Source: Chryseobacterium angstadtii
Lineage (GTDB): Bacteria; Bacteroidota; Bacteroidia; Flavobacteriales; Weeksellaceae
Reading direction: 5' to 3'
Length of the DNA stretch: 64,000 bases
Assembly: GCF_001045465.1 (NCBI RefSeq)
Contig: NZ_LFND01000001.1
Span: 620,001-684,000, forward strand
The notes beneath the pieces were generated by a model that did no database searches, was not told the DNA's origin, and saw nothing but the letters and a program-made list of their open reading frames with translations. The position numbers and the translations under genes were made by a program. Position 1 is the first letter of the stretch, and every line of letters starts with the position of its first letter. Positions 10,184-27,340 of the stretch are shown piece by piece.

Positions 10184-10862
10184 TTTTACAGCTGCAGCTT
10201 TGAATGATCTTATTGGCCACTACAGAACCACCCCATGTAGGGTAGATATTCGTCAGTCTTTTTACTTCTCCCAAATCTTCTGCAAAGTATTTATTGGCCA
10301 GGAAAAGCTCTTTACACAAATCCGGATATTTGGATTTAAGAAATTGGGCCATTCCTTCTTTGAATAAGGTATTCAGGAATAGTGCTCTGGGATTGTTGTT
10401 TATTTTTATAGCCGTTTCAAATGCACTGTTCACTTCTCCGGAATACTGCGGTCCGTTTTTCATAGGATCCATGCTTACAGCCGATAAAAACAGGAACCCT
10501 TTTAATGCGTAAGCCTCGCTTTTCTCTTTGTTATTCTTGCTCATATCAATCAGCTGACCGATATTCTGGGAACAGAAACTGAAAATATTATTTTTTTCTT
10601 CTTCACTTTTGCTGTCTCTCAGGATCAGCAGTTTAAAATAAATAAGATAATATTTAGCAGCCCAGTCGTTCTTATATTTGCTGCTGAGTCTCTCCATCAT
10701 CTGCGATTCTTTACGAAGAGATTCCACAGAATATTCTTTTTCCAGATTTTCAAGAGACTTCAGGACTACCTCCTGGGTTTCTTTTTCGATGGATGAATTT
10801 TGTGCCTGCACGGCTGTGCCCGCCAAAATTAAAAACAGGATAAGATAAATTCGTGCTTTCAT
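10176..10862 (-). CDS. Secreted helical-repeat (TPR-like) protein of unknown function
   Basis: 228 residues with a signal peptide ending in VQAQ. The rest is helical, with pairs of helices of TPR/SEL1 style (WAAKYYLIYFKLLI, SEAYALKGFLFLSAV, PRALFLNTLFKEGMAQF). It ends in CSCKNE. No named family is recognised. It overlaps the DUF2141 gene by one base and the S41 peptidase gene by eight bases, so the three are co-translated periplasmic products. Confidence 0.8.
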   Translation of the reverse strand: MKARIYLILFLILAGTAVQAQNSSIEKETQEVVLKSLENLEKEYSVESLRKESQMMERLSSKYKNDWAAKYYLIYFKLLILRDSKSEEEKNNIFSFCSQNIGQLIDMSKNNKEKSEAYALKGFLFLSAVSMDPMKNGPQYSGEVNSAFETAIKINNNPRALFLNTLFKEGMAQFLKSKYPDLCKELFLANKYFAEDLGEVKRLTNIYPTWGGSVVANKIIQSCSCKNE

Positions 10863-11275
10863 TATTTTAGATTTATTGTTAGTGAGTTGTTGGCTTTCAC
10901 GGTAAATGAGGCTTCTTCAAATTTCGGAGGGCCGAATGATCCTCTTGCGTTCTGAGAAAATCCGTAAGGTTCAAGAGGTATTCCGAGGAAATTTTTATCC
11001 AGTTTTCCATCCGCATTTTCATCAAGGTAGGCAGACACGGAAATAGATTTTCCCTCTTCCAGATCTTTGATCACAAAGCGTTTTTTGCTTCCGTTGTAGT
11101 TCGTTTTGAATCTGGCAACCGCAGTCTGAAGAAACTTTTCCGAATTATCATACACAGCAATATACAGGGTCCCTTTTTTAGCTTCAGAAGTGGTAAAAGA
11201 AATAGATACATGTTTCTTCTGCTGGGAATGACTGAAATTAAAAATTAAAATACATAAAAAAATGAGCTGTTTCAT
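10862..11275 (-). CDS. DUF2141 domain-containing secreted protein
   Basis: 137 residues: a short signal peptide, then a beta-sandwich-like DUF2141 domain with the typical GTLYIAVYD near the start and AYLDENADGKLDKNFLGIPLEPYGFS in the second half. The DENADGKLD segment resembles a calcium-binding loop. The family is common next to TonB receptors in Bacteroidota and its role is unknown. It follows the receptor gene by 45 bases. Confidence 0.88.
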   Translation of the reverse strand: MKQLIFLCILIFNFSHSQQKKHVSISFTTSEAKKGTLYIAVYDNSEKFLQTAVARFKTNYNGSKKRFVIKDLEEGKSISVSAYLDENADGKLDKNFLGIPLEPYGFSQNARGSFGPPKFEEASFTVKANNSLTINLK

Positions 11276-11320: not shown

Positions 11321-13516
11321 TTATAAATCTTTCACTTTATCTTTGGTAGATCTGGAACCTCCGATCGTGTAAAACACACCCAGGAAGTAGAATCTGTCGG
11401 ATACCGGAAGAATCATCTGCTCCTGGCGCATTCCGTTGCTCTGTAAATCTCCGTAGTTATATCCCGCTATATTTTTGAAATTAAATATATTGGAAACCGA
11501 TCCGTGGATATAAAATTTATTTGAAAACAGATAGGTAAGATTCAGGTTTACAGAATTATAGGGTTTGATTCTGGAGTTCTGAAATCCATCATTGCTGTTC
11601 GGATTGGTATAAGGTTCACCGCTGGAAAATAAATAGGATAATCCTACCATACTATTGATGGCATTCAGCCAGAACTGTGTATTGACAGTAAGGTTATGCC
11701 TGGAATAAAAAGGCGGCGTAGCCAGGGTTGGATAATTCTGATAGTCTCTTTTGGAGTTCAGATAGGTGTAAGATATTCTGTAATCAAAATTATTGAACGT
11801 CTTTTTATCGTAGAAGAACACATCCACTCCTTCTGCATATCCGTACCCGTCATTGTTAAAATTAATAGGCTGTCTTGAATTCGGTGCGTAGACGAATTTC
11901 GTCAGATCACTGTATTTTTTCTTAAACGCATCTATAAAAATGGTCCTGTTGTTTTTTTCATAATAAACGTTCACCCCATACTGCTCTGCTCTTTCGCTTT
12001 TAAGATTGCTCTTGAAATCGAAGACAAGATCTCCGTTGCGTGGGCTTTGATAGTAATGTCCGTAATAAAGGGAATACTTAATTCCGTTCGGGCTTTTGTA
12101 TTCACCCCTGATTCTCGGAGAGATTTTCACATCTTTCGTATAGGAATAATAATCCTGTCTGATGCCTGCATTTAAAGAAAATCCTTTTTTGAATTTATAG
12201 GAATTTTCAGAAAAGAAGGCTATAACATTGTTGTCGATGGATCTGTCCAGCCTGTTTCTGGTATTATTCCCGTCTGCATAGTCTATAAAATAATGTACGT
12301 TAATAAATTCCACTCCAAATGTACTGTTCAGGTTCTTTACAGGCGTGAAAGAAAGCTGGGATTTGATGTGGAGCATATTGTTATCCACCTTCGATTTGTC
12401 GTTCTCGGAGAATATTCCCGCAATATTCCTTTTATTGAAATTGTAGGCTATCCCTGAAAAAAACTTCACTTTATCCAGATTCAGGTTAATGGTCTGGTTG
12501 GAATAGACGTTTCCTTCGTACAATACGGTATTCACCATATTATTTGAAATGGCAATATCATCTCTCTGATAATCAAAGGTTGTGTAATCAAAACGGTTAT
12601 ATGATTTTATATATCCGTTTTTAATCTTGTAGGTGGCTGCCAGTTCACCGCCAGTCATATTATAGTCTTTATTCCAGTGATATCTTGAAGGAAAGACGGC
12701 TCTGTATGGCTTCAGGTTCAGGTATTCCACCTTAGTCATCAGTGTAAGATTGTCATTAATTTTATTGGTCATAGACACATCTGCCCCAACGCTTTTTACA
12801 GACAGTTCAAGCTCCTTATCTACGTCATTAGATTTGGTGTTGAGTGATAAAATACTCGACAGTGCCTGTCCATATTCTGAGGAAAATCCGGATGTTGCAA
12901 AAGAAACACCGCTGAAAATCATCGGAGAAAAACGGCTTCTCGCAGGAATACTTGGCCCGGCGGTTCCAAACGGGCTGCTCATGAGCATATTGTTGATCAT
13001 CACCGCAGATTCATTCTGGTCACCTCCTCTTACGAATAACCTTCCGTCATTAGGGTTAAGCTGTACTCCCGGATAGGATTTGATCACGGCAGCCATTACG
13101 TCTCCCAGGGAATTCGGGGTCAGGATAAGGTCCAGAGGACTCAGTGCAGACAGCTGCCCGTCGCCGTTTTTTTTACCTTTGATGATGCTTATCCCTTCTA
13201 TTCCTGTGGTACGGCCTTTATACAAAGTGGTCTTACCCAGATTCATTTCACCCGGTTTCCCTTTGTATTCTTCTTCTCCATGATCGTAACCGTCTTTCTG
13301 AAAAATGATTTTGAACTGACCCAGTTTATCTGATTCTGCTTCAAAAGCAAAAACACCTTTCTGATCAGAAGAAGTTCCGAAGAGGGTTCCGTCTATAAAA
13401 ATATTTACGTTTTCAAGAGGTTTATTGTATTCATCTACAACAACGCCTGAAATATGGGTTTGCGCGTAATAACAGTTTTGTATAAAAACCATTATGATCA
13501 ATAATTTCTTCAACAT
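11321..13516 (-). CDS. TonB-dependent receptor with carboxypeptidase-regulatory domain
   Basis: 731 residues. A signal peptide is followed by a CarboxypepD_reg-like beta domain (ISGVVVDEYNKPLENVNIFIDG), a plug domain (LSALSPLDLILTPNSLGDVM; RGGDQNESAVMINNML) and a 22-strand-type barrel ending in an aromatic-rich strand (YFLGVFYTIGG). Such receptors move ligands through the outer membrane with energy from TonB; no SusD partner is present. It starts two bases after the acyltransferase stop, inside the RiPP/polyene train, so it may take back, sense or export-couple the cluster's product. The ligand is unknown. Confidence 0.92.
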   Translation of the reverse strand: MLKKLLIIMVFIQNCYYAQTHISGVVVDEYNKPLENVNIFIDGTLFGTSSDQKGVFAFEAESDKLGQFKIIFQKDGYDHGEEEYKGKPGEMNLGKTTLYKGRTTGIEGISIIKGKKNGDGQLSALSPLDLILTPNSLGDVMAAVIKSYPGVQLNPNDGRLFVRGGDQNESAVMINNMLMSSPFGTAGPSIPARSRFSPMIFSGVSFATSGFSSEYGQALSSILSLNTKSNDVDKELELSVKSVGADVSMTNKINDNLTLMTKVEYLNLKPYRAVFPSRYHWNKDYNMTGGELAATYKIKNGYIKSYNRFDYTTFDYQRDDIAISNNMVNTVLYEGNVYSNQTINLNLDKVKFFSGIAYNFNKRNIAGIFSENDKSKVDNNMLHIKSQLSFTPVKNLNSTFGVEFINVHYFIDYADGNNTRNRLDRSIDNNVIAFFSENSYKFKKGFSLNAGIRQDYYSYTKDVKISPRIRGEYKSPNGIKYSLYYGHYYQSPRNGDLVFDFKSNLKSERAEQYGVNVYYEKNNRTIFIDAFKKKYSDLTKFVYAPNSRQPINFNNDGYGYAEGVDVFFYDKKTFNNFDYRISYTYLNSKRDYQNYPTLATPPFYSRHNLTVNTQFWLNAINSMVGLSYLFSSGEPYTNPNSNDGFQNSRIKPYNSVNLNLTYLFSNKFYIHGSVSNIFNFKNIAGYNYGDLQSNGMRQEQMILPVSDRFYFLGVFYTIGGSRSTKDKVKDL

Positions 13517-13518
13517 AT

Positions 13519-14568
13519 CTACTGATTTTTCAGAAGGGTAAACTGTTCCTGGCTTACAGGATATACATTGTAACGCAGCCTGTCGAACAGGTAAGCATTA
13601 TCATCAATTTTAAAAACCGCAAAATGGCCGCTTTCAATATCTTTTTTTCCAAGCTGAAGGATATCTATGGTCTGATCCTTATTCAGAAGAACATCGTTTG
13701 AAAGGTATTTGTGAAGGTAGAACCAGGCTTCCCACTGATTCGGGTATTTTTTGATATACTTTTCAAAATGAGAATAGATCTGCCGGATTGTTCTGTCTGC
13801 AAAATCATCAATATTTGCCGTACTTTCCACAGGAATTTCATCAAAGAAATGAACATGCGGATGAAGCTTATCTTCCGAATAATAAGTGATGAACGGCACT
13901 ATCGGCGTTTTTGTAAAGTAGGCGATTTTGGCCAGCCCGGTCCGTGAAAACAGATGATCAGCCAGGAAATCTACTTTAATGGTTTTTTCTTTATTGTATA
14001 CCCCTTTATAACCTGAGTTTCCATCCAGATAGGCATATAATGAATATCCTTTTTTGATCAGCTGGGATATTTCTATCACCGTATTGGCTTTTTCTACATT
14101 GATGACTTTAAGGCTGTTGGTAATCTGGAACATTTTACAGAAACGTTCGTTGATTTCCAGGATGGTTTTCGCCTGTTTATTGTAGGTATTTTCATCAACA
14201 ATCAGGGCAATTTTATCAATTCCGTTCAGAATGAGAACACTGATGGCAGCTTTGCAGAATCCCAGATGGCAGGTAATGTAGATTTTAGGCTCCGGATCCA
14301 TTTCAGAATCCAGGTTTTTTCCCACCTGATCAGAAAACTGCTGTATTTCTGTAAGATCAAATTCTCTCAGCCTCATGGTCGTTATAATATCCAGATAAAG
14401 CTCCCAGTGATCTTCTTTTGGGATTTCGGGCATAAAGCGGCTTAAATTGGCGGACATAAAGTGAAAATCCTTCGTCTGTTCCTCTTCTCTCTTTTTGATT
14501 TCTTTTTGTGCGATGACATCTTTTATAGATTTCCTTACTTCGTATACCCGGTTTATATTATTGTTCAT
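13519..14568 (-). CDS. LpxL-like (LPLAT superfamily) acyltransferase, altered motif
   Basis: 349 residues resembling lauroyl/myristoyl acyltransferases of the lipid A group, which move an acyl chain from acyl carrier protein to an acceptor. The expected HX4(D/E) dyad appears as HLGFCK (101-106), so histidine is kept but the acid position is lysine. Further family landmarks are YLDGNSGYKG, FSRTGLAKIAYFTKTPIVPFITYY and, near the end, PNQWEAWFYLHKYL. It overlaps the hydrolase gene by 11 bases. In this context it is the best candidate to join the carrier-bound chain to the peptide or to a lipid. Aryl-polyene clusters carry comparable acyltransferases. Family call is good, substrate is inference. 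Confidence 0.75.
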   Translation of the reverse strand: MNNNINRVYEVRKSIKDVIAQKEIKKREEEQTKDFHFMSANLSRFMPEIPKEDHWELYLDIITTMRLREFDLTEIQQFSDQVGKNLDSEMDPEPKIYITCHLGFCKAAISVLILNGIDKIALIVDENTYNKQAKTILEINERFCKMFQITNSLKVINVEKANTVIEISQLIKKGYSLYAYLDGNSGYKGVYNKEKTIKVDFLADHLFSRTGLAKIAYFTKTPIVPFITYYSEDKLHPHVHFFDEIPVESTANIDDFADRTIRQIYSHFEKYIKKYPNQWEAWFYLHKYLSNDVLLNKDQTIDILQLGKKDIESGHFAVFKIDDNAYLFDRLRYNVYPVSQEQFTLLKNQ

Positions 14569-15310
14569 GGTGCAGTGTTTTTTTGATTATCTCTATTGCT
14601 TTAGGGTTATTGTTGAGTGTAAAATGTCCAAAATCTTCATATTCTTTAAAATGACAGGACGGATATATCCTCAATATTTTTTTTCTGTACTCTTTTTTCA
14701 GGGTGACATCCTGCTTTCCCACGATGACCAGGGGATGTAGTCTTTTATTCACGATCTGAGTGGTTTCCGTAAGGTGCTTCAGCTGTTTGATAATCACCTC
14801 TCTGAGATTATTTCTCTTCACATAAAACAGAAACATAATCGCCAGAAACGGATTCTCTTTTCTTTCTTTTTCCGTGTAACAGTATTCTATCAGTTTCACC
14901 GAAAACTCGTTCAGATCTTTGCGTAAAATTTCCGCAAGGGAACGATAATACCGTAAATCTTCTTCTTCTACGTTGGGTGGTGTACCAATGAGAATCAGGT
15001 TTTTGATGTCATAGATCTCAGCCAGATACATGGCGACTTTACCGCCGTAGCTGCAACCGATGAGGAAAGTTTCTTTTTGCTCAAGCTGTTCAAGTTCGGT
15101 TTTCAGATTATCTACGAGCGTTGAAAAAAGGTCTTCCGATGCTGTTTTATTATCCAGATATCCGGGATAATCAATTAAAACCAGTTCATATCCTTCAAAT
15201 TCCTCTTTTACATGTACAGTATCTGTCCAGTAAGAGCTGTCCATTCCCATCGGATTCAGAAAGACAATCCTTTTTGTATGGTGGCTGTTGTATCTTTCTT
15301 TAATCAGCAT
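14558..15310 (-). CDS. Alpha/beta hydrolase (possible thioesterase)
   Basis: 250 residues with the alpha/beta-hydrolase fold: oxyanion region FLNPMGMDSSYW, nucleophile elbow GCSYGG (Ser87), acid in VIVGKQDVT and histidine in DFGHFTL. It overlaps both neighbours by 11 bases, the tightest coupling in the train. In an acyl-carrier pathway it may release the chain from the carrier (type II thioesterase) or cut an ester; a peptidase role is also possible. No signal peptide, so it is cytoplasmic. Confidence 0.85.
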   Translation of the reverse strand: MLIKERYNSHHTKRIVFLNPMGMDSSYWTDTVHVKEEFEGYELVLIDYPGYLDNKTASEDLFSTLVDNLKTELEQLEQKETFLIGCSYGGKVAMYLAEIYDIKNLILIGTPPNVEEEDLRYYRSLAEILRKDLNEFSVKLIEYCYTEKERKENPFLAIMFLFYVKRNNLREVIIKQLKHLTETTQIVNKRLHPLVIVGKQDVTLKKEYRKKILRIYPSCHFKEYEDFGHFTLNNNPKAIEIIKKTLHHEQ

Positions 15311-16511
15311 TTTTGCGGATGCTATTAATCAGATCGAACATCATCTGACAAACGATCTGCGGAGACTGGTCGTTGCTGTCCGGATACACCTCAACAATAT
15401 CACAGCCTACGATGTCCTTATCTGTGAGAATATCACGGATCAGTTTCTGACACTCGTCAAACGTTAACCCGTTAATAACCGGTGTAGACGTATTATTAAA
15501 GAAAGTGGGATCCAGCACATCAAAATCAAAGGTCACGTAGAATTTTTTACCTGCCGGTATATTGGCCAGCGGAAGATTATTTTTCAGAGCCTTTTTTATT
15601 TCATGGGCCCAGATGATGGTTTGCTTTTCATTTGAACCCTGACGGTTATTTACAAGACCGCGGATCCCGAACTGAAACGCATGCTTTAACCCATCCTCAA
15701 AACATTTTGTCATAAAGTTCCCGTGATGGTGTACCGTATCTGTATTTCTGATGGTATCGTAGCTGGAAGTATAGGTATCCGTATGGGCGTCAAAATGCAA
15801 TACGCAAAGATCGTCTCCATATTTATCTATAGCTCCTTTGATAAGCGGATAGCTTATTGAATGATCTCCTCCGATAAAGAAAGGAACCAAATGATCTTTT
15901 TTGAAACAGGTTCTGGAAATTTCATAGATCTTTTCATACATAAAGCCCGGGGATTCATGGGTATTGAAAAATATATTTCCAAAGTCGAAAAGTTCTCCCT
16001 CTTGTATGGCGGTCATCAGCTGAAGATAGTCTTCGTGCGTTCCTCCGAAAACATCCGGTTTTACCTGTGAAGTTGCAGACAGATCCACACCGTATTTTTT
16101 GGTATATGCCCGTAAGGAATTGGCTAACTGAGAGGACTGAATATTTTCTTTGTTCCCGATTCCAAGAGGCACGCCGATGAAGCCAAATGATTTTTTTGCA
16201 AGAGGAGCGGCCATGCTTTTATACGGAAGATTGAACAAATGAGGAGTATGTGGAGTGATTTGGGTAACGATATCCTTATAGTTGTTATCCAGAACAATAT
16301 AGCTTTTGGCCGTGAGTGTTTTCAGAATACCGCCCAGGTCATCATTGATGTCTTCGAATCTTTCTTCCAGCTCACTATAAGGCTTTGGCTTTTTCAGGAA
16401 ATCTATAATTTCAAAAATACGGTCTCCGCAAAGAAGCTTTTCGCCGGTAATGGAATTCACCAATTTATTTTCTTCTTTATGAACGTATGGATTGGTATGG
16501 AGTGTTTTCAT
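15300..16511 (-). CDS. Arginase-family ureohydrolase with N-terminal RRE-like domain
   Basis: 403 residues. Residues 1-80 look like a PqqD-like winged-helix domain (RRE-like) that binds RiPP leaders. Residues 105-403 are a ureohydrolase domain with all metal motifs: GGDHS (214-218), DAHTDTY (241-247) and DFDVLDP (329-335). Arginases and agmatinases hydrolyse guanidino groups at a two-manganese centre. The Glu of TPExGGLT that holds the guanidinium is replaced (TPVINGLT, 343-350), so the substrate may differ from free arginine. Free arginases have no such N-terminal domain. The precursor peptides upstream carry two or three core arginines, so conversion to peptidyl ornithine is the leading hypothesis. 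ELEERFE (47-53) is identical to the peptide leader motif. Confidence 0.82.
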   Translation of the reverse strand: MKTLHTNPYVHKEENKLVNSITGEKLLCGDRIFEIIDFLKKPKPYSELEERFEDINDDLGGILKTLTAKSYIVLDNNYKDIVTQITPHTPHLFNLPYKSMAAPLAKKSFGFIGVPLGIGNKENIQSSQLANSLRAYTKKYGVDLSATSQVKPDVFGGTHEDYLQLMTAIQEGELFDFGNIFFNTHESPGFMYEKIYEISRTCFKKDHLVPFFIGGDHSISYPLIKGAIDKYGDDLCVLHFDAHTDTYTSSYDTIRNTDTVHHHGNFMTKCFEDGLKHAFQFGIRGLVNNRQGSNEKQTIIWAHEIKKALKNNLPLANIPAGKKFYVTFDFDVLDPTFFNNTSTPVINGLTFDECQKLIRDILTDKDIVGCDIVEVYPDSNDQSPQIVCQMMFDLINSIRKNAD

Positions 16512-16512
16512 A

Positions 16513-17691
16513 TCAGTATATTTTTGATCTTACGGTTTTGTATAATGTTTTAAGAAGTTTGGTAAAATAAATCATCAGCAGGGTCAGAATGGCAAATTTG
16601 TAGACCAGCTTGAGGATAGAACAGGCATCCATATTCCCTACTTTAAGAATACTTCCGAAAGTATTGATGTAAGTTCCCAGGAAATTGAAAATCGCCAGAG
16701 CCAGCATTACATTAACGCCCACTTTGAGCACTGAATAAATAATAAGCGGCAGGCTGTAGGGATTCATGTATTTCCGTTCATCTTCAATAAAGAAAGAGGA
16801 AAGAGGCCTGATGATTTTTTTCATCCAGAATCTGATGCACATCTGGTATTTTTTACTGAGGTTGGGCAGATTGAACAGGTCACTGTAAAGCCAGTAGCCG
16901 TCAAACTTGAAAAACGGAAATAAATTAACAAGCATCGTAATTCCGTTGATAATAAATACATTGTGCAGCACATGCAGGACCTGATCATTAAGATCCAAAT
17001 AGGTATAAGAGCAAAACAGCAGTACACCCAATATAGACTGGAAAAAAATTCCACCCAGATTCACCACTACTCTTTTGTATCTGCTCAAGGCCCACACATT
17101 CGTTACATCCGCATAAAAAACAGGGAATATAAGGTAGAGTCCAAAGCCTATTGAATAGGTTTTCTGCTTAAAGAACTGTGTTGCGGTAACATGCCCCAGC
17201 TCATGGATGATAAGGATAAAAAATAAGCAGAGATAGGTAACAAAATATACGCCCAGGGTATTGGTACAGTACTCTCCATTCATATCATGCTGTGGCAAAA
17301 ATGCCAGTTTATAGAGATTGAAAAGAAGAAAGACTACCAGAACCGGCCAGAATACATAAGGCTTGATCAGGAATCTCAGAGCATCTGCTATTTTCTTATA
17401 ATGTTTCGGAAAAAGGAGATCTACTTTGTACCACATAAAGGACAGGTTGTTCGCCTTTTCTTTTTTGAGCAACGGTGTTACAATATCCGTTATACTTTTC
17501 TGAAGCTCTTCCGGGGTTGAGGTAATTTCATGCTCTTGATGAAGCAGCTCACTGATTTCATCAAAAGTATGGCCTTCCTTCACCTTCAGAAAGATGGTAT
17601 AGGTTACTTCATTTATTTCGTAGTATTTCTCGTTGATAATCAACAGATATCTCCCGTTATCTTTTATGATATCAAAATCACTTGTATTCAT
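16513..17691 (-). CDS. M50 site-2-type membrane metalloprotease with RRE-like N-terminus
   Basis: 392 residues. Residues 1-80 are soluble and resemble a PqqD/RRE domain (YEINEVTYTIFLKVKEG, then a helical pair). Six to eight membrane helices follow. The zinc site is HELGH (163-167), with the third ligand in FKFDGYW (261-267), a pattern frequent in RiPP-cluster M50 proteases. It probably removes the leader of the precursor peptides at or in the inner membrane, perhaps coupled to export, since no ABC exporter is present. One base separates its stop from the arginase ATG. Confidence 0.85.
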   Translation of the reverse strand: MNTSDFDIIKDNGRYLLIINEKYYEINEVTYTIFLKVKEGHTFDEISELLHQEHEITSTPEELQKSITDIVTPLLKKEKANNLSFMWYKVDLLFPKHYKKIADALRFLIKPYVFWPVLVVFLLFNLYKLAFLPQHDMNGEYCTNTLGVYFVTYLCLFFILIIHELGHVTATQFFKQKTYSIGFGLYLIFPVFYADVTNVWALSRYKRVVVNLGGIFFQSILGVLLFCSYTYLDLNDQVLHVLHNVFIINGITMLVNLFPFFKFDGYWLYSDLFNLPNLSKKYQMCIRFWMKKIIRPLSSFFIEDERKYMNPYSLPLIIYSVLKVGVNVMLALAIFNFLGTYINTFGSILKVGNMDACSILKLVYKFAILTLLMIYFTKLLKTLYKTVRSKIY

Positions 17692-17861
17692 GTAATCAAC
17701 AACTAAAATTTAAGTCTGAATTTTTATAAGGCTATGTGATCCTGGTGTTATATCAATGATGATCTTATGAATTGCAGGTCACTCAAAACATTCTATCCGA
17801 AGTTTTTTTCAATCTTGTTATCTGTATCACCTATTATGACGAGGTAATGATGGTAGAAAAT

Positions 17862-17889
17862 GTAAGGCGGAGCTTCAGCCCCACCTTAC
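17862..17889 (-). terminator. Strong hairpin between precursor array and protease gene
   Basis: Minus-strand stem GTAAGGTGGGGC / GCTCCGCCTTAC of 12 pairs including two G-U pairs and a four-base loop, 13 bases after the last precursor stop. The following bases are only moderately T-rich, so it may be a partial terminator or a 3' stabiliser that keeps precursor transcript above enzyme transcript. Confidence 0.5.
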
Positions 17890-17901
17890 AATAGATAGGT
17901 C

Positions 17902-18039
17902 TTAAACAGCTGATACTTCTAGTCTAACATCTGCTCTGTTTCCATTGCATCTGTCAATATCCAAAGAAACAACAGAAGTTTCGAATCTTTCTTCTAGCTC
18001 AACGATAGAGATAGAGTTAGTTAAATTCTTGTTTTCCAT
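17902..18039 (-). CDS. Putative RiPP precursor peptide, copy 4
   Basis: 45 residues. The leader (MENKNLTNS..., containing ISIVELEERFETS) is the same as in the other copies; the variable C-terminal part is IDRCNGNRADVRLEVSAV. One cysteine and three arginines (30, 35, 39) fall in the likely core. No double glycine and no signal peptide. It is nearest the protease gene and the most diverged copy. Confidence 0.85.
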   Translation of the reverse strand: MENKNLTNSISIVELEERFETSVVSLDIDRCNGNRADVRLEVSAV

Positions 18040-18106
18040 GAGAATTGAATTTTAAGGGTTAATACTTAATTTTTTTAATTACAAACGACTTTCGTCAGGT
18101 CTTCAA

Positions 18107-18247
18107 TTACTTGATAACTGAAGCCTCTAATCTTACATCTGCTCTGTTATCGTTGCATCTGTCCATGTCTAAAGAAACAACCGAAGTTTCGAATCTTTCT
18201 TCAAGCTCAACGATAGAGATAGAATTAGTTAAATTCTTGTTTTCCAT
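18107..18247 (-). CDS. Putative RiPP precursor peptide, copy 3
   Basis: 46 residues, one longer than the others because of a terminal lysine. Leader identical to copy 4; variable part MDRCNDNRADVRLEASVIK. It shares the Asn-Arg-Ala core variant with copy 4, while copies 1 and 2 have Arg-Asn-Thr-Ala at this place. Confidence 0.85.
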   Translation of the reverse strand: MENKNLTNSISIVELEERFETSVVSLDMDRCNDNRADVRLEASVIK

Positions 18248-18306
18248 GAGAATTTAAATTTTAAGGGTTAATACCAGTTTTTTTTAATCAGAAGATTATG
18301 CTCATC

Positions 18307-18444
18307 TTAAATAGCAGAAGCCTCCAATCTTACGTCCGCTGTGTTACGGCTGCATCTTTCAGCATCCAGAGAAACAACAGAAGTTTCGAATCTTTCTTCT
18401 AACTCAACGATAGAGATAGAATTAGATAAATTCTTGTTTTCCAT
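18307..18444 (-). CDS. Putative RiPP precursor peptide, copy 2
   Basis: 45 residues. Leader differs from copy 3 by Thr7 to Ser. Variable part AERCSRNTADVRLEASAI, nearly the same as copy 1. One Cys (31) and arginines at 30, 33 and 39. Confidence 0.85.
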   Translation of the reverse strand: MENKNLSNSISIVELEERFETSVVSLDAERCSRNTADVRLEASAI

Positions 18445-18503
18445 GAGAATTTAAATTTTAAGGGTTAGTACCAGTTTTTTTTAATCAGAAGATTATGGTC
18501 ATC

Positions 18504-18641
18504 TTAAACAACAGAAGCCTCTAATCTTACGTCTGCTGTGTTACGGCTGCATCTTTCAGCATCCAGAGAAACAACAGAAGTTTCGAATCTTTCTTCCAGC
18601 TCAACGATAGAGATAGAATTAGTTAAATTTTTGTTTTTCAT
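18504..18641 (-). CDS. Putative RiPP precursor peptide, copy 1
   Basis: 45 residues and first to be transcribed. Starts MKNKNLTNS; the other copies start MENKN. Variable part AERCSRNTADVRLEASVV. A conserved ISIVELEERFETS leader, no signal peptide and a position directly upstream of an RRE-carrying protease and arginase-like enzyme mark it as a RiPP precursor. The leader/core border is not known; the change in conservation after SLD (residue 27) is the best guess. Confidence 0.85.
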   Translation of the reverse strand: MKNKNLTNSISIVELEERFETSVVSLDAERCSRNTADVRLEASVV

Positions 18642-18682
18642 AAGAAATTAAATTTAAATGGGGTTAATAATATTTTTAGAAC

Positions 18683-18710
18683 CAAACATGACTTGCAATA
18701 AGTCCTTCAA
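18683..18710 (-). promoter_or_regulatory. Possible internal promoter before the precursor array
   Basis: Minus-strand TTG (18708-18710), 17-base spacer, CATGTTTG (18683-18690): seven of eight matches to TAnnTTTG. Predicted start near 18676, about 35 bases before copy 1. It would let peptides be made in excess of the enzymes. Confidence 0.4.
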
Positions 18711-18713
18711 TGA

Positions 18714-18812
18714 TTAAATTGATGCATATCTATATCCGTCCCATGCTTCAAAAGCATAGAGAAATACAATTCCTGAAATATAAATGAGGGTCGTTTCTGT
18801 CTGCAGAAACAT
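18714..18812 (-). CDS. Small hydrophobic ORF between ACP and precursor array (doubtful)
   Basis: 32 residues starting MFLQTETT and containing one hydrophobic stretch (LIYISGIVFLYAF). A small membrane peptide, for example immunity or a leader peptide, is possible. The bases just upstream (ATTGAGCTGAAGAAGGAAAC) resemble the precursor-leader DNA, so the whole region may be a decayed extra precursor copy. Chance ORF cannot be excluded. Confidence 0.25.
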   Translation of the reverse strand: MFLQTETTLIYISGIVFLYAFEAWDGYRYASI

Positions 18813-18893
18813 TGAATTTTGAGTTTCCTTCTTCAGCTCAATGAGTACACTGAATCTTTTCCGGAAGGAAAGGGTAAGAAAAGCAGTTCCGGT

Positions 18894-19187
18894 TTAGTCT
18901 TCTACCTTTTCTTCTATCAGATTTCCTTTTTCTATGACCAAATCTGCCAGGGAATTAATGTTCATGAACGTCTGCTCATTAAATTCCGAAGGATCTATAT
19001 TGTACTTTTCAGACAGCACGGTGGCTATTTCCAGTACAACCAGCGAATCCTGGATGATTCCGCTTTCCGGATCGTCTTCACTTCCAAAAAGGCTTTTTTC
19101 GTTGTCTATCTGATCCGGTGTAAGGTCCAGCTTCAACACATCAATGATAATCTCTTTAATTTCTTTTTTGATTAAATCTGTTTCCAT
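18894..19187 (-). CDS. Acyl carrier protein
   Basis: 97 residues, four-helix carrier fold. The phosphopantetheine site is DSL with Ser48 (IIQDSLVVLEIA). Acidic overall. It holds the growing acyl chain as a thioester for the ketosynthase, reductase and dehydratase encoded around it. It starts four bases after the ketosynthase stop. It is longer and less typical than the fatty-acid AcpP, which fits a dedicated secondary-metabolism carrier. Confidence 0.9.
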   Translation of the reverse strand: METDLIKKEIKEIIIDVLKLDLTPDQIDNEKSLFGSEDDPESGIIQDSLVVLEIATVLSEKYNIDPSEFNEQTFMNINSLADLVIEKGNLIEEKVED

Positions 19188-19191
19188 ATTC

Positions 19192-20418
19192 TTAATTTTT
19201 TTGTAATATTAAACTTGTCATACATCCACCGAATGCAAATGAATTAGAGATGGCTGTATTGATTTTTTCTTTTATAGCTTTGCGGGGGATCATCACATTT
19301 TCAGGGGTATCTATGATGACATGATCATCCGGAAGTAAGTTGGGTGGAACAAAGGAATTGTTCATGGCCAATATGGTAAGGGCAGCTTCCATAGCTCCGG
19401 CAGCTCCCAGGCAATGCCCGGTCTGGCTTTTTGTAGAACTGATGAACAGGGTATCTTTTTTATCTCCCTCATCCAGCAGCCTGCCGATCCCAAGAAGTTC
19501 GCTCCCGTCATTCGTAGGGGTTGCGGTACCGTGAGCATTGATATAATCTACCTCATCGATGGTGATTCCGCCTCTTTGCAGAGCGCCATCCATGCAATTG
19601 TACACTGTGCTTCCGTCAGCTTTTAAAGCGGTAGGATGATGCGCCTCATTCATAAAGTAATAAGACAGGACTTCCGCATAGATTTCTTTGTTGTTTTCTA
19701 CAGCATGATCGTAATCTTCAAGAATCAAAAATACAGACCCGTCCCCCAGCATCAGCCCGTCCCTTGTTTTGGAAAAAGGCGTACAATGCGTTTTAGACAG
19801 GGCGTGAAGGCAGTTGAATCCTGAAAAAGCGAGTTCTGAAAAAATATCAACTCCTCCTGCGATCACCGTTTTATATTTTCCGGTTTTGATAAGATCCAGC
19901 CCTCTCCCGATGGAATTGGCGCTGGCCGAACAGGCAGTGGAAATGGTAGAAGACTGGCCTCTGATTCCGAAATGCTTGCAGATATCCCCGGTAATAGTCT
20001 GTACGGAATGGGATGACAGACTAAGCAGATCATAGGTAAGCTCCCGGGTCGCAATAAATTCTTTATAGTATTCTGTAAAACTATGTCCGGAGCCAATTGA
20101 TGAGCCGACAACCAGGGCAGCATTCTTCAGATCTTCCTTTGTAAGTCCCGCGTCTTCCACAGCCTCATTGATACTGTGAACAGCACAGCTGAACTGAATG
20201 GTCTTATCGTCTTTTGAAATTTCACTCAGGTATTCCTGATCTATACAGAAAGCGGTATCGTTTCTGTAAAACTTATGATTGACATCAAACCTCTCTATAT
20301 TTCTTGTACAAAGCTCGTTATCCGTCAGAGCATTAATGTGGTCTTCCTTATTCTTTCCTAAAGAACTCAGCATTCCGATCCCTGTAACTACAACTCTTTT
20401 TTTATTCATTTCGCTCAT
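19192..20418 (-). CDS. Beta-ketoacyl-ACP synthase, FabF-like, catalytically intact
   Basis: 408 residues, thiolase fold. Catalytic Cys163 in STACSASA, His296 in NAHGTATP, Lys330 in SSTKSQTGH and His335 are all present. It condenses malonyl-ACP with the growing acyl-ACP. Paired with the inactive homologue at 21199-22383 it forms a KS/chain-length-factor-like couple as in type II polyketide and aryl-polyene systems. No acyltransferase for malonyl loading is in the window, so the general FabD probably supplies it. Confidence 0.92.
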   Translation of the reverse strand: MSEMNKKRVVVTGIGMLSSLGKNKEDHINALTDNELCTRNIERFDVNHKFYRNDTAFCIDQEYLSEISKDDKTIQFSCAVHSINEAVEDAGLTKEDLKNAALVVGSSIGSGHSFTEYYKEFIATRELTYDLLSLSSHSVQTITGDICKHFGIRGQSSTISTACSASANSIGRGLDLIKTGKYKTVIAGGVDIFSELAFSGFNCLHALSKTHCTPFSKTRDGLMLGDGSVFLILEDYDHAVENNKEIYAEVLSYYFMNEAHHPTALKADGSTVYNCMDGALQRGGITIDEVDYINAHGTATPTNDGSELLGIGRLLDEGDKKDTLFISSTKSQTGHCLGAAGAMEAALTILAMNNSFVPPNLLPDDHVIIDTPENVMIPRKAIKEKINTAISNSFAFGGCMTSLILQKN

Positions 20419-20455
20419 ATGGTCATAATAAATAGATTACTTACCCGTCTTAATT

Positions 20456-21202
20456 TTATCCTGTAATTCCTCCATCTACAATGATTTCCTGTCCGGTAAG
20501 GTATTCCGGAGAAGAACTTCCCAGATAGTAGGTAACATCCGCAATTTCTTCCGGCATTCCCATTCTTTTATAGATGCTGTTGTCTATTCTCATCTTCAGG
20601 TATTTTTCCGGAACATCATCTGTGCTTTCCGTACTTACGAAGCCCGGTGCCACAGAGTTTACAATGATTCCCATGCTTCCCACCTCTTTTACAATGGATT
20701 TCGAGAAACCTATGATGGCTCCTTTCGAGGCTGCATAAGGTGAATGTCCCGGGTTGCCCTTTGTTCCCGCAATAGAAGTGATGTTTACAATACGCCCTCC
20801 TTTGTTCCGGATAAATATGGGCAGTACTTCTCTCACCGCATTGACTACCGACATGAGGTTCATACCCAATATTTCCTGGAAATAATCATTGCTGCAGAAC
20901 ATAAAAGGTTTCAGTTTTCCGTGGCCGCCTACGTTATTGATTAGGGCTGATACGGAAGAAAAGTCTTCTTTGTTCTCTTTAAAAAGTCTTTTAACATCCG
21001 CTGCATCTGCCATATCACATTTGTAGCTTTTAGCCGGTGGGCAGCTGTAGTTCTCATTAATATGATCTACAAGTTCAAGTGCTTCTTTGTCACTGTTCTT
21101 ATAAGTAAACAACACCTCACATCCTTCCTGCGCAAATTTCAGGGCTATGCTTTTCCCTATTCCTCTGGACCCGCCAGATATCAGTACTTTTTTTGCTGTC
21201 AT
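20456..21202 (-). CDS. 3-oxoacyl-ACP reductase (FabG-like SDR)
   Basis: 248 residues, classical short-chain dehydrogenase. Cofactor motif GGSRGIGK (10-17), NNVGG near 89-93, and the catalytic Ser143, Tyr156, Lys160 (YAASK). It reduces the beta-keto group after each condensation, with NADPH most likely. It overlaps the chain-length-factor-like gene by four bases. Together with the dehydratase and with no enoyl reductase in the cluster, this predicts a conjugated polyene chain, unless the housekeeping FabI acts. Confidence 0.92.
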   Translation of the reverse strand: MTAKKVLISGGSRGIGKSIALKFAQEGCEVLFTYKNSDKEALELVDHINENYSCPPAKSYKCDMADAADVKRLFKENKEDFSSVSALINNVGGHGKLKPFMFCSNDYFQEILGMNLMSVVNAVREVLPIFIRNKGGRIVNITSIAGTKGNPGHSPYAASKGAIIGFSKSIVKEVGSMGIIVNSVAPGFVSTESTDDVPEKYLKMRIDNSIYKRMGMPEEIADVTYYLGSSSPEYLTGQEIIVDGGITG

Positions 21203-22383
21203 TGGTATTTTTTTAATAGTAAAACTGTATTATTTCCGCCTAAGGAATAGTTGTGAACCAGTGTAAAGCTGCTTTCGTGGTCGGGAGATACACCCAGTGA
21301 AATATTATGGGGAATATCTTCTACACTTACATATTCCAACGGTCTGTAAGGTTCGGTAACAAACGGAGCGATAACATTCAGGTTGCTGAAACCTGACATT
21401 CCTTCTCCCAAAAGCAATTTGATATTGCTGTAATTGAATTTGTAAGGAAGCGGTTTTAATGCCATAAATTCATATTTTTTTATTTGCCACGGGAGACACG
21501 ATGTACCCAGTATATTAATGGAGTCTTCTTCTTTGATCTCGTTGTCCTGCAATATCTTCTCTATGTTGAACTCAAGCTGTTCCGCATCTCTTTCGAAAAT
21601 AGTATACGAAGAGGTCGTATCCATATAAGAATGATAATCCAGTATTTCACCGTATATTTTGGCATTTCTCTTCAGAGCAGATTCCAGGGTTTCTATCACG
21701 ACAAATCCGGCAGATTCGCTGAAAATATTTTTATTGTCGGCGTTAATGATGTCTTCCTGCATGGAATCACCACCTGCTGCCACCGCTTTCTTTTTCTTTT
21801 CGAGATTAAAAAGAGTCAATTCCTTGATCTCATCCACGCCTCCGCAGACTACGATATCACAATGCTCATTTCTGATGAGGTCTATTCCGTACACCACACT
21901 TTCTTCTCCGTATACGAAAGAACTTGGTCCTTTTATTTTAAATGCTCTTGAAACATCTCCCAAAACACTGTTGGATGTTGCTTTAGAAAAATTAAACGGA
22001 CTGAGTCTATCCGGTCCTTTCGTAAAAAGGGTGGTCAGAAAGTTCTGGATCTCGGCACTGGGTCCCAGCGTATTGGTGATGATTAATCCGGTATTTTCCA
22101 GCAGCTCACTTTCATACAAATCCGCATCGTGCAGTGCATTGATGCAGGCTTTCATAGCAATACTTGAAAGCTGATTAGGAAACGGGGCCTTCATAGGCAG
22201 ATATTTACTGATATCTATCGTGGGAATCTGCCCGAAATAAATATCTCCTATGTCATACGTGGACCAGGAATGGCCACCTGAAAACGAGAAAGCCTTATTG
22301 GATATGCTGTCTGCAAAATCCTGGTTCTCCAATCCTTTTGGAGTAACGGCTCCCCAACCTGTAATAACGATTCTCTTTTCCAA
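21199..22383 (-). CDS. Inactive ketosynthase homologue, chain-length-factor-like
   Basis: 394 residues, ketosynthase fold kept (MEKRIVITGWGAVTPKG start, GPSS region, C-terminal NYSLGGNNT). The active centre is lost: where the partner has the cysteine motif this protein has GPSSFVYGEES (152-162) with Glu at the cysteine position. The NAHGT histidine becomes NILGT and the GH histidine becomes GE. Chain length factors lose the cysteine and dimerise with an active synthase to set product length. Adjacent co-transcription with an intact synthase supports this role. Confidence 0.82.
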   Translation of the reverse strand: MEKRIVITGWGAVTPKGLENQDFADSISNKAFSFSGGHSWSTYDIGDIYFGQIPTIDISKYLPMKAPFPNQLSSIAMKACINALHDADLYESELLENTGLIITNTLGPSAEIQNFLTTLFTKGPDRLSPFNFSKATSNSVLGDVSRAFKIKGPSSFVYGEESVVYGIDLIRNEHCDIVVCGGVDEIKELTLFNLEKKKKAVAAGGDSMQEDIINADNKNIFSESAGFVVIETLESALKRNAKIYGEILDYHSYMDTTSSYTIFERDAEQLEFNIEKILQDNEIKEEDSINILGTSCLPWQIKKYEFMALKPLPYKFNYSNIKLLLGEGMSGFSNLNVIAPFVTEPYRPLEYVSVEDIPHNISLGVSPDHESSFTLVHNYSLGGNNTVLLLKKYQ

Positions 22384-22390
22384 AATTCTA

Positions 22391-22819
22391 TTATTTTAAA
22401 ACTAACTCTGCAAGGCAGACTACTTTATCTTCTAAAATCACTTCACATTCAAAGGTGTAAAACCCCATAATGATGGTCTTTAACTTTGCGGAGATCCTTA
22501 ATCTTTGCTCCGGGTACACTTCATGGTTAAATGTTGTGTTTTTAATTTTGATGGCTCTACCAAGAATGGCGCCCGGAACTTTTGAATATTCAAGATTAAG
22601 GCGAATAAATAATCCACAAGTCTGAAACATTGTCTCTACCAGTATAACTCCCGGAGTTATCGGGTTTCCTTCAAAATGCCCTTTAAAAAAATAGCTGTCT
22701 TCTTTAAAAAATGCCTCTGAAATCAGATGGGTATTGGGTTCAAATTCAACTATTTTTTCTACCAGCAGCATGGGCGGTCTGTGCGGCAATAGTTGCGAAG
22801 GTGAAGGAAAATTTTTCAT
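22391..22819 (-). CDS. FabZ-like 3-hydroxyacyl-ACP dehydratase
   Basis: 142 residues, single hot-dog domain. Family motifs are LLPHRPPMLLVEKI, then HFEGNPITPGVILVETMFQ with catalytic His48 and Glu62. It removes water from the 3-hydroxyacyl-ACP to make the trans-2-enoyl chain. Length is typical of FabZ. Seven bases separate it from the chain-length-factor-like gene. Confidence 0.9.
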   Translation of the reverse strand: MKNFPSPSQLLPHRPPMLLVEKIVEFEPNTHLISEAFFKEDSYFFKGHFEGNPITPGVILVETMFQTCGLFIRLNLEYSKVPGAILGRAIKIKNTTFNHEVYPEQRLRISAKLKTIIMGFYTFECEVILEDKVVCLAELVLK

Positions 22820-22850
22820 ATATATATAATGGTATTAATTTTTTATGTTT

Positions 22851-23315
22851 TTATTTTTTATGACAAACTGCACAGGCATACTCATCATCAATATTAATCT
22901 CTTCAAAATACACCGATCCGATATCTATTTCACTTTGGTAAGCGTTGATCAGTTTCAGTTGTAACATTTTCACCAGTGCTTCCAGCTTTACCCAGTCGTT
23001 CACATGATACACCGGCATGATATGGCCATAAAGTCTGTTTATAAAGGAATAACATTTCTCACCGATTTCTCTTTTCCATTCAATATCTACCCCAATCGGT
23101 TTCCGGGAAACAGCACAGATCACCAGGTGACGGGAATGGGAAATACTTATATAATATTCCGAATCTTTAATAAAAGGTTCTCCGTTTTTTCCTTTTTCAA
23201 TAATGGTTTTCTTTCCGAAAAAAGAATTCGCTAAATCCTCTGCAACCCCATTTTTTGTTTCATCTGCATATGTATATAAGAGGTGAATATCATTTGGTAA
23301 ACTGATGACTTTCAT
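22851..23315 (-). CDS. 4'-phosphopantetheinyl transferase (short Sfp-type)
   Basis: 154 residues, shorter than the usual 200-240. The signature is recognisable: ISISHSRHLVICAVS, PIGVDIEW with the magnesium-binding Asp, and WVKLEALVK replacing the usual WxxKEAxxK (first Lys becomes Leu, the Glu stays). It would add the phosphopantetheine arm to the neighbouring acyl carrier protein. Its start overlaps the ligase gene by 26 bases. A dedicated transferase argues that the carrier is not served by the housekeeping AcpS. Confidence 0.82.
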   Translation of the reverse strand: MKVISLPNDIHLLYTYADETKNGVAEDLANSFFGKKTIIEKGKNGEPFIKDSEYYISISHSRHLVICAVSRKPIGVDIEWKREIGEKCYSFINRLYGHIMPVYHVNDWVKLEALVKMLQLKLINAYQSEIDIGSVYFEEINIDDEYACAVCHKK

Positions 23316-24681
23316 TGTGCAGCATTACTTCAATATTATTCAGCATCCCGGAATCCATTCGAGGTGATAAAATGGAGCTGAAATCGGTATTGGGAAAATC
23401 TCTTTTGGAATTCACTACCAAATTGATGGACAGCCGGTCATTTTTCATCGCCGTATTCACTTTAAGAAGGCTTGGAATGTTATTAAAGAACAGATCCTGT
23501 ATTTCAAAATCCCAAATCTCAAACGGACTAAAGTAATCCGAGTTCCTTCCGATGATATAAAATTTATCGTTTTCCGTGTATACCAGATCCGAGGTGAGCA
23601 CTTTGCTCAGGTCTCCGGTATATTCGTTCCCATTCAGATATCCGTTAAATACCGAAGGGGTATTGATCGTAAGACTGTAAATATCTTTCTGATGGTAGGT
23701 GGTTACAAAAGCCTCTTTTTCCAGGGAGATATTTTCCAGAGGAACTCCCAGATAATTCGGTTCAAAATCTTCTTTTTCCAAGTAACTTATCTTATAAGTA
23801 GCCACTCTTGGTCCCGCTTCCGAAGTTCCATAGGTTTTGTAGTAGGAAGGAACAGGAAAGTTTCCGGTAAATTTCAGAAAACATGTTTTTCCTACATAGC
23901 CCCCTCCTATACTTATAAATTCAAGCGTTTTTCCGGCGTTGCCAAGTTTCACATTGTAGGCCAGCAAAGTCCTCAAAAGTGTTGGCGTGATAAAAAAATT
24001 GGTCACACTGTATTTTTCGATGTACGAAACCAGATTCAGAGCAATAAATTTATAAGATGACAGAATGAGGTTTCCTCCTGACAGCAGATGCGAAAAGAAC
24101 TGCGCCACCAAAGCATATGAATAATACAACGGAAGGCATACAATACTGGTGTGGCCGCTGTTTATTCCCAAAGAATTTACATTCGATCTGATATTCTGCA
24201 ATATACTGTCCGAAGAATGCATAATATATTTCCTGATCTTTGTGGTTCCGGAGCTCGACAATACCACGGAAGTATTTTTAAGCGGCTGATCCATATAATC
24301 ATTCCTTATTAATATATTCCCGTATGGACTTTTGTGTATATCATGCTCAAAATCAAAGGGAATACAGGAATTGTCCTGTGTAATGATTGCATAAAAGAAC
24401 GGAATTCCTTCCAGGTTTTCTTTCGTGCATTCAATCAGGAGCGCACAGCCTCCTTTCTTCAGGATCAATAAATAAAGTATAATTAAATTTACTGTATTAC
24501 CCTGATAATCGATCACAAACAGCTTGTCTTCAAAATCAGTCCCTGAAAAATTCTTTTCCAAAGATTCCACTTCCAATAATATTTCAGAATACGTCATCTT
24601 CTTATTATTAAAATCAAGAATCCAGGAACCTGAATGGGTCAGCAGGCTGTTATGAATTTCATTCCACAGAGATCTCATCAC
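23290..24681 (-). CDS. AMP-dependent acyl/aryl-ACP ligase
   Basis: 463 residues, ANL superfamily. P-loop SSSGTTKIRK (142-151), YKTYGTSEAGPR (A5 motif) and TGDLSKV with YIIGRNSDYF (A7/A8). It activates a carboxylic acid with ATP and probably loads the starter on the acyl carrier protein. The C-terminal domain is compact and the usual glycine/proline of the P-loop is altered, so activity should be checked. Such ligases start aryl-polyene chains with an aromatic acid. No ammonia lyase for that acid lies in the window. Confidence 0.85.
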   Translation of the reverse strand: MMRSLWNEIHNSLLTHSGSWILDFNNKKMTYSEILLEVESLEKNFSGTDFEDKLFVIDYQGNTVNLIILYLLILKKGGCALLIECTKENLEGIPFFYAIITQDNSCIPFDFEHDIHKSPYGNILIRNDYMDQPLKNTSVVLSSSGTTKIRKYIMHSSDSILQNIRSNVNSLGINSGHTSIVCLPLYYSYALVAQFFSHLLSGGNLILSSYKFIALNLVSYIEKYSVTNFFITPTLLRTLLAYNVKLGNAGKTLEFISIGGGYVGKTCFLKFTGNFPVPSYYKTYGTSEAGPRVATYKISYLEKEDFEPNYLGVPLENISLEKEAFVTTYHQKDIYSLTINTPSVFNGYLNGNEYTGDLSKVLTSDLVYTENDKFYIIGRNSDYFSPFEIWDFEIQDLFFNNIPSLLKVNTAMKNDRLSINLVVNSKRDFPNTDFSSILSPRMDSGMLNNIEVMLHNESHQFTK

Positions 24682-25091
24682 CCCAGTTTTTGAAGTACGT
24701 TGGTAATAAACTGCTTATACTCGCTGCTGAAAGCTTTCTGTTCAAGAGTTACAGCCTGTTCTTCCAGCTCTTTTTTGTCGTGAAGGATATTTTGGGAAAA
24801 ACCCAGCCCTTTTGGAATATTACTTTCGATAAGGTATCTCAGAAATACAACTTCATATCTGTTTTCTGCGTCTGCACTTTCTACTGCAGACATGATCTCT
24901 TTATTGAAAGTGGCAAGATACTGTATCTTTTTCAGCGGACTGATAACGGTCTTCGCTCTATACGCATTGGCTACAGCATTAAATGAAGCATTTAAGCAGT
25001 TACCTTTATCCAGGTTTTCAGCCGAAGCAATAAATTTTTTGATTTCTTTTTTATTGCCTTCTCTACAATTCATTAATAGATCTCTGATCAT
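24678..25091 (-). CDS. Small helical protein of unknown function, first in polyene genes
   Basis: 137 residues, no signal peptide, mostly alpha-helical by composition, ending LQKLG. It overlaps the ligase gene by four bases. I do not recognise a family. Being tightly coupled to the acyl-chain genes it may be an assembly or helper protein of that pathway. Confidence 0.72.
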   Translation of the reverse strand: MIRDLLMNCREGNKKEIKKFIASAENLDKGNCLNASFNAVANAYRAKTVISPLKKIQYLATFNKEIMSAVESADAENRYEVVFLRYLIESNIPKGLGFSQNILHDKKELEEQAVTLEQKAFSSEYKQFITNVLQKLG

Positions 25092-25133
25092 ACGTAGATA
25101 TTTTAAAATTAGACATCTTTTACTTAAAGCAGG

Positions 25134-25253
25134 TGATTGGCTATTTGAGATTTTCCTGAAAAAGAACTTTCGTCATTAAAGGAGGCTTTCAAATTTTTCC
25201 GGAACTACTGTATTGATTTTTACAGTTTCGGGATCACCTATGCTGAGTTGCAT
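25134..25253 (-). pseudogene. Possible frameshifted small peptide gene at the operon head
   Basis: An ATG at 25253 opens 25 codons (MQLSIGDPETVK... to FESLL) and stops at TAA (25176-25178). In the shifted frame the sense sequence goes on as NDESSFSGKSQIANHLL to a stop near 25134. The two parts together would give about 42 residues. It may be a broken precursor-like peptide, a real short leader peptide, or a sequencing error. Confidence 0.3.
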
Positions 25254-27219: not shown

Positions 27220-27237
27220 CACAGTAGTAGTTTTATG

Positions 27238-27245
27238 CAAATTTA
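27238..27245 (-). promoter_or_regulatory. -7 box TAAATTTG of the AraC-type regulator
   Basis: Minus-strand TAAATTTG, a perfect match, 18 bases before the ATG at 27219. This placement supports the shorter start. Confidence 0.55.
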
Positions 27246-27340
27246 CATATTTCTTCTTCAAAAAACCAGGATTGAAAAAAAAACAAACCAAGCTTGCAAT
27301 TAATTGAAAATAAATTAATTACAAAACCCAACACCATCAT

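Follow-up and report, generated by a model that had tools for sequence, protein, structure and literature searches.

A Chryseobacterium angstadtii gene cluster that may join a dedicated acyl chain to an ornithine-containing ribosomal peptide, and its relatives in the Bacteroidota

Gene content of the cluster

Genes for ribosomal peptides and genes for building an acyl chain lie side by side in a 64,000-nucleotide stretch of Chryseobacterium angstadtii DNA (contig NZ_LFND01000001.1, positions 620,001 to 684,000 of the forward strand; assembly GCF_001045465.1), here called the window, to whose first letter all unlabelled coordinates refer. A train of minus-strand genes encodes four precursor peptides, an M50 protease, an arginase, a ketosynthase (KS) with a chain-length factor (CLF)-like partner, a ketoreductase, a dehydratase, an acyl carrier protein (ACP), a phosphopantetheinyl transferase, a ligase, a hydrolase, an LpxL-like protein and a TonB receptor. 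Scans of the window proteins with Pfam and NCBIfam profiles supported all of the genes named in an earlier note made from the sequence alone, weakly for the phosphopantetheinyl transferase and below cut-off for the M50 protease. We consider it somewhat probable that the cluster encodes a conserved hybrid pathway, in which the arginine of an Arg-Cys pair is converted to ornithine and a dedicated acyl chain is joined to the peptide, most likely by the LpxL-like protein.

The earlier note described the train as tight, and this holds in part. Across the 16 junctions from 25091 to 11321, 11 are shorter than 40 bases, including 5 overlaps; the remaining five measure 252, 59, 59, 67 and 210 bases, and every one of these flanks or separates precursor genes. 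A 13-bp terminator-like hairpin with a T-rich tail (17861..17890, minus strand; -21.8 kcal/mol, z -3.2) lies between the last precursor and the M50 gene. Given the wide precursor gaps and the hairpin, the train may be read as more than one transcript. The hairpin could also set a high ratio of precursor to enzyme.

Arginase, protease and the Arg-Cys motif

The putative peptide arginase (15300..16511, minus strand) matches PF00491 at 3.8e-46 and groups with the ureohydrolases of that family by profile, fold and metal-ligand positions, which are invariant across 30 aligned rows. PF00491 is its only Pfam match, and it carries DAHTD and lacks the other two motifs listed in PMC12703449. Its first 87 residues form an RRE (RiPP recognition element)-like domain, RiPPs being ribosomally synthesized and posttranslationally modified peptides; few structure-search rows cover this portion. 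The adjoining gene (16513..17691, minus strand) encodes an M50 intramembrane protease with a PqqD/RRE-like N terminus and a predicted role in leader removal. Its Pfam match falls under the cut-off, and its best NCBIfam matches point to the RiPP intramembrane protease family at scores far under the curated cut-offs (daptide_HExxH, 92 bits, 3.1e-26, cut-off 300; YydH/LiaK epipeptide protease, 66, 4.1e-18, cut-off 225; PqqD, 0.0014, below cut-off). M50 proteases work in epipeptides and pearlins (PMC10885120). RRE-like N termini are supported for both enzymes, as the earlier note had proposed.

The four precursor genes (18504..18641, 45 amino acids [aa]; 18307..18444, 45 aa; 18107..18247, 46 aa; 17902..18039, 45 aa; all on the minus strand) each encode an Arg-Cys pair. 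The core of the fourth reads ...DIDRCNGNRADVRLEVSAV, and its leader, SISIVELEERFETSV, is common to relatives. A leader of the (S/T)IVELE(E/D)R(F/L)E type is present in 64 precursors from 15 arginase loci, with two to seven precursors per locus; this motif also served to collect them, and four precursors were added by hand from arginase-free loci. By gene content the locus belongs among RiPP clusters: its short precursor genes share one leader and lie next to maturases that have RRE-like domains.

Every one of the 64 precursors (59 distinct) from the 15 arginase loci has Arg-Cys in its core, whereas the 14 (13 distinct) collected in seven loci without arginase all lack it. In 36 of the 59 distinct cores, every arginine belongs to such a pair. 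When core residues were shuffled 2000 times, a mean of 5.2 of 59 cores contained Arg-Cys, with a maximum of 14. With the arginase loci collapsed into 8 independent groups by our own grouping, the contrast of 8/8 to 0/7 has a chance probability of 1.6e-4. Because the pair is confined to precursors of arginase loci, its arginine is the best candidate for the arginase target, which fits the earlier proposal of ornithine made from arginine. A simpler rule, in which lysine serves without arginase and ornithine with it, fits one relative (G1136; G numbers denote relatives' genomes) and was rejected because two cores in G1005 have no lysine. No precursor was recognized in the arginase-free loci of G1265 and G297.

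Chain-building genes

The acyl part of the train includes an AMP-dependent acyl/aryl acid ligase (23290..24681; AMP-binding, 1.9e-18) that is only distantly like 4-coumarate ligase (1.7e-11), a short phosphopantetheinyl transferase (22851..23315) with weak matches (AusB model, 4.9e-7) and a FabA/FabZ-type dehydratase (22391..22819; FabA-like, 5.6e-19), all on the minus strand, as are the genes that follow. The ACP (18894..19187) scores 21.3 bits against PP-binding (cut-off, 20.8) and has a DSL motif read from the sequence; it was not listed by a genome-wide PF00550 search. The earlier note saw a KS-like pair, which proves to be one ketosynthase with Cys-His-His (19192..20418) and one CLF-like partner without the active-site Cys and His (21199..22383). 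Both match ketoacyl synthase profiles, and in the alignments the triad is present in 6/6 ketosynthases and the cysteine is missing from 6/6 partners, as in a type II KS/CLF system.

The ketoreductase (20456..21202) is a short-chain dehydrogenase/reductase (SDR). Its best Pfam match is PF13561, a broad SDR family named for enoyl reductase, and its best NCBIfam match is 3-oxoacyl-ACP reductase. In agreement with the earlier note, neither a second reductase nor a separate enoyl reductase was found among the cluster proteins scanned, so an unsaturated chain is proposed, and a polyenoyl or aryl-polyenoyl chain is possible. Aryl polyene, flexirubin and other highly reducing type II polyketide synthase (PKS) lines contain KS, CLF-like protein, ketoreductase, dehydratase, ACP, ligase and an LpxL-like gene, the aryl starter of aryl polyene clusters coming from an in-cluster ammonia lyase. 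The general enzyme set is the same here, but it is combined with precursor peptides, and no ammonia lyase for an aryl starter was found among the cluster proteins scanned.

The ketosynthase is only 35-36% identical to its nearest paralogue in the strain, which lies in a KS-rich region that we take to be flexirubin-type. That region has no match for CLF, ligase or phosphopantetheinyl transferase, and derivation of the chain genes from it is unsupported. At C3:450-476 kb, C11 and C1:1.150-1.173 Mb, the genome encodes large multicarrier proteins (probably nonribosomal peptide synthetases) and a KS-rich region.

LpxL-like protein

The LpxL-like gene (13519..14568, minus strand; Lip_A_acyltrans, 1.3e-8) encodes a predicted peptide acyltransferase of a family with the LPLAT fold. 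The active-site motif of LPLAT/LpxL enzymes is HX4(D/E); the window protein has HX4K, whereas two paralogues in the same genome, the strain's LpxL and another LPLAT protein, retain HX4E. No GNAT family match was found among the window proteins scanned with Pfam.

Relatives and the nested series

The loci of relatives were read in limited stretches around the matched gene (e.g., 14-34 kb, 19 kb or 40 kb), in genomes of three bacterial families (f1, f2 and f10, the last taken to be the Spirosoma family). An arginase search found 4 of 296 genomes of the strain's own family, including Chryseobacterium endalhagicum and C. carnipullorum, after two further matches (G018 and G029; about 2e-21, residues 185-391 only) had been dropped from an initial 6 as agmatinases. 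A genome-contig scan added Galbibacter marinus, which retains most of the gene order at 35-63% identity, has no S41 or AraC gene in the cluster and has its CPBP gene in another place. Among 398 genomes of a genus to which Flavobacterium sp. GT3R68 belongs, an LpxL-like profile found six, one with a full cluster (G1153) and five with distant relatives, and a widened profile across the phylum found 5 of 296 genomes, the strain's own included. In 200 Spirosoma-family genomes, the arginase profile found nine loci in eight genomes; in the order and phylum draws (395 genomes each), it found the strain's own locus only. Matches to the arginase outside these sets were low in identity: two on viral contigs (24-29%) and 440 among plasmid records (all below 60%), of which the 10 listed had 25-30% identity and, where annotated, were agmatinase or arginase-family genes.

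The combination sought by the earlier note in other Bacteroidota recurs in Galbibacter, Flavobacterium and the Spirosoma family and is kept across three bacterial families. Since the gene set recurs at about 25-63% identity, it is not a chance assembly. That note also named separate occurrence of the two gene sets in relatives as a finding that would refute the hybrid. Both halves were present in 13/13 readable loci with chain genes (four Chryseobacterium, one Galbibacter, one Flavobacterium and seven Spirosoma family), and a CLF was found in 0 of the 17 genomes tested from 192 arginase-free Spirosoma-family genomes. Matches in these 17 genomes were no better than FabF level: the eight that were fetched, each with the active cysteine, reached 131 bits at the highest and the others 111, whereas a held-out true CLF scores 548. 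In the window, and in every relative read but Galbibacter, the ACP gene adjoins the precursors; Galbibacter has one gene in between. For ten proteins from the peptide and chain sides, pairwise distances over 12 full clusters correlate at 0.94-0.99, a figure obtained without a housekeeping control.

The 24 loci tabulated comprise 13 full clusters, two with arginase, M50 protease and LpxL-like protein, and nine in which, of these parts, the LpxL-like gene occurs without arginase or chain genes (four of the nine with M50). No chain genes were found near the two middle loci (the second locus of G1412, and G1415; 19 and 40 kb read), and neither arginase nor chain genes were found in 14-34 kb around the nine LpxL-like loci, one of which, in G483, ends 687 bases from the end of its contig, so that partners may lie off the contig. 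In this sample the clusters form a nested series, with the LpxL-like gene most widespread, arginase inside its range, and chain genes inside the arginase set. Exclusivity of the CLF and LpxL-like families to this cluster had been considered and was dropped. It rested on word-based protein searches, which detect only sequences with 5-residue words in common and pass over distant relatives; profiles recover Spirosoma-family CLFs of 30-33% identity as well as distant LpxL-like proteins.

Several relatives hold features of their own. Two clusters coexist in genome G1412 (L084/L096 and L085), one full and chain-building, the other with arginase and LpxL-like genes and no chain genes. Five of the seven Spirosoma-family full clusters encode an extra protein of 855-868 aa (L088:78-2663, minus strand, with counterparts in S2-S4 and S6), and the one scanned is of the lantibiotic-dehydratase N-terminal type (PF04738, 5.5e-27). 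In G311 (L069:6781-13956), a SPASM-type radical SAM look-alike and a TonB-type receptor, both labelled from the sequence, accompany three Cys-rich precursors, an LpxL-like protein with HX4L and an M50 protease, apparently a different RiPP cluster using the same two enzymes. At L041:13461-14935 and L043:11312-14126, LpxL-like genes (HX4Y) directly follow precursors with Cys-His-Cys and a short tail; an S41 peptidase-like gene lies nearby, recognized by a match in L043 and by its sequence in L041, and neither locus has an M50 match.

Remaining genes of the conserved unit

The conserved unit is larger than the earlier note had it. Like the phosphopantetheinyl transferase, a DUF2141 protein (10862..11275) and a TPR-like protein (10176..10862) have relatives in 13/13 full clusters, and the Galbibacter and Flavobacterium clusters also have a CPBP/Rce1-like protease (7948..8748) and a 137-aa protein with no assigned function (24678..25091). 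The train further includes a TonB-dependent receptor (11321..13516; Pfam and locus tabulation) and an alpha/beta hydrolase (14558..15310; Pfam) with a presumed thioesterase-like role, whose place is taken by a PF00975 thioesterase-domain protein in the Spirosoma-family locus scanned. A TPR-AraC regulator (25450..27291) has a 30% identical relative preceding the arginase-free cluster of G1136. All seven genes are on the minus strand.

Discussion

Ornithine formation, chain type, attachment and attachment site are what we infer from this gene set. In the hybrid pathway, the leader would bind the RRE-like domains of the arginase and the M50 protease, and the arginase, presumably using manganese, would release urea to leave ornithine beside cysteine. 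The ligase would load a starter acid, from which KS/CLF, ketoreductase and dehydratase would build an acyl-ACP whose chain is unsaturated and perhaps polyenoyl. Transfer of this chain to the peptide would fall to the LPLAT-fold protein, the ornithine side-chain amine being the favored site, and the M50 protease would cut off the leader; the TonB receptor may act in uptake or self-recognition. We give an even chance to a broader proposal, namely that the LpxL-like proteins form a RiPP maturase class not seen before, made up of peptide acyltransferases that have the LPLAT fold, a rewired active site and guidance by the leader. Along the nested series of Bacteroidota clusters, they would use housekeeping acyl donors first, next Orn-Cys made by the arginase as acceptor, and in the full clusters a KS/CLF line dedicated to building the peptide's chain.

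Goadvionins and lipolanthines reportedly also join a chain built by PKS or fatty acid synthase (FAS) to a RiPP, with other rings and with joining by GNAT or other PKS/FAS routes. Selidamides share with this cluster the proposed ornithine logic and an acylated ribosomal peptide, but they are said to use pfam12640 arginases and a GNAT acyltransferase encoded beside the precursor, where we find a PF00491 arginase, an LPLAT-fold protein and a dedicated KS/CLF builder. PMC12703449 describes selidamides (phaeornamide and kamptornamide) as ribosomal peptides in which a peptide arginase makes ornithine and a fatty acyl group sits on its side chain, and PMC10028609 types them as pfam12640 products. The enteropeptin enzyme KgrD is likewise a PF00491 arginase acting on an arginine adjoining cysteine, where a Cys-derived thiomorpholine is required first (PMC12703449); here no radical SAM match was found among the cluster proteins scanned, and the arginase has an additional RRE-like domain. 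The Chryseobacterium-related lipidated RiPPs of PMC12636315 use the lipoprotein pathway and differ from this locus. No description of the present combination was found in searches of the open-licence PMC literature, which is not proof of absence.

Several observations weigh against the hybrid pathway as proposed. In 20/20 LpxL-like members aligned, the histidine of HX4(D/E) is kept and K, R, Q, Y or L stands where the acid would be, so that catalysis may differ. The occurrence of LpxL-like genes in nine loci lacking arginase and chain genes in the stretches read indicates that the protein is not tied to ornithine. Evidence that its C terminus is RRE-like is suggestive, weak and mixed: comparison with the arginase N terminus gave 43-45% and with the M50 N terminus 0.5-1.8%, no better than shuffled controls; the window copy is cut short and matches the C termini of relatives at 95%, and a Pfam scan of five distant LpxL-like proteins detected no PqqD. 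The co-occurrence count partly reflects how the loci were sought, since the arginase searches brought in 12 of the 13 full loci and the LpxL-like protein the remaining one, that of G1153. In one contig set (P0127/P0208; 5,795,386 bp), CLF and LpxL-like matches occur with no arginase among the 120 of 138 matches listed. Lastly, cysteine, not an amine, is the residue shared most widely: of the 13 distinct arginase-free precursors, 12 contain it, while Lys or Arg varies among them.

This last point makes cysteine a strong rival attachment site, and we regard it as unlikely but well worth weighing. The chain would form a thioester with the thiol, or an amide with the amino group once cleavage had made the cysteine N-terminal, and ornithine would have another function, such as supplying charge, aiding S-to-N acyl transfer or driving cleavage behind it by lactam formation. 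Cysteine follows arginine in every precursor of arginase loci, and the lost acid partner of the LpxL-like histidine would suit this reading. Against it, the LpxL-like gene accompanies arginase in 15/15 loci, the known ornithine-lipid RiPPs carry the chain on the side-chain nitrogen (PMC12703449), and one small open reading frame in G1005 has no cysteine.

That one locus makes two products linked only by coregulation, one an ornithine-containing RiPP and the other a polyenoyl metabolite or pigment independent of it, seems improbable to us. The LpxL-like, M50 and precursor part does stand alone in other genomes, and the two middle loci have arginase without chain genes in the stretches read; however, the constant presence of the peptide part in chain-gene loci, the lack of a CLF in the arginase-free genomes tested and the position of the ACP gene beside the precursors argue against this. 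Still less probable is a pearlin-like scheme, in which a small acyl-Orn-Cys lipid-amino acid is built on the peptide as scaffold and released by the M50 protease: the M50 proteases TglG and TmoG free modified residues from scaffold peptides (PMC10885120), but Arg-Cys is internal here, with 5 to about 20 residues beyond the cysteine in the precursors tabulated, and the M50 protease best matches daptide and epipeptide proteases.

If the hybrid pathway is correct, its products would represent natural lipopeptides of a new kind, in which a lipid A-type fold, instead of GNAT, joins fatty chains to ribosomal peptides, and the several precursors of each arginase locus would be natural lipopeptide libraries. 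The presence of Arg-Cys in the core wherever arginase is present is a rule that can be read from genomes, and the simple, middle and full clusters offer a ready series for testing each step module by module.

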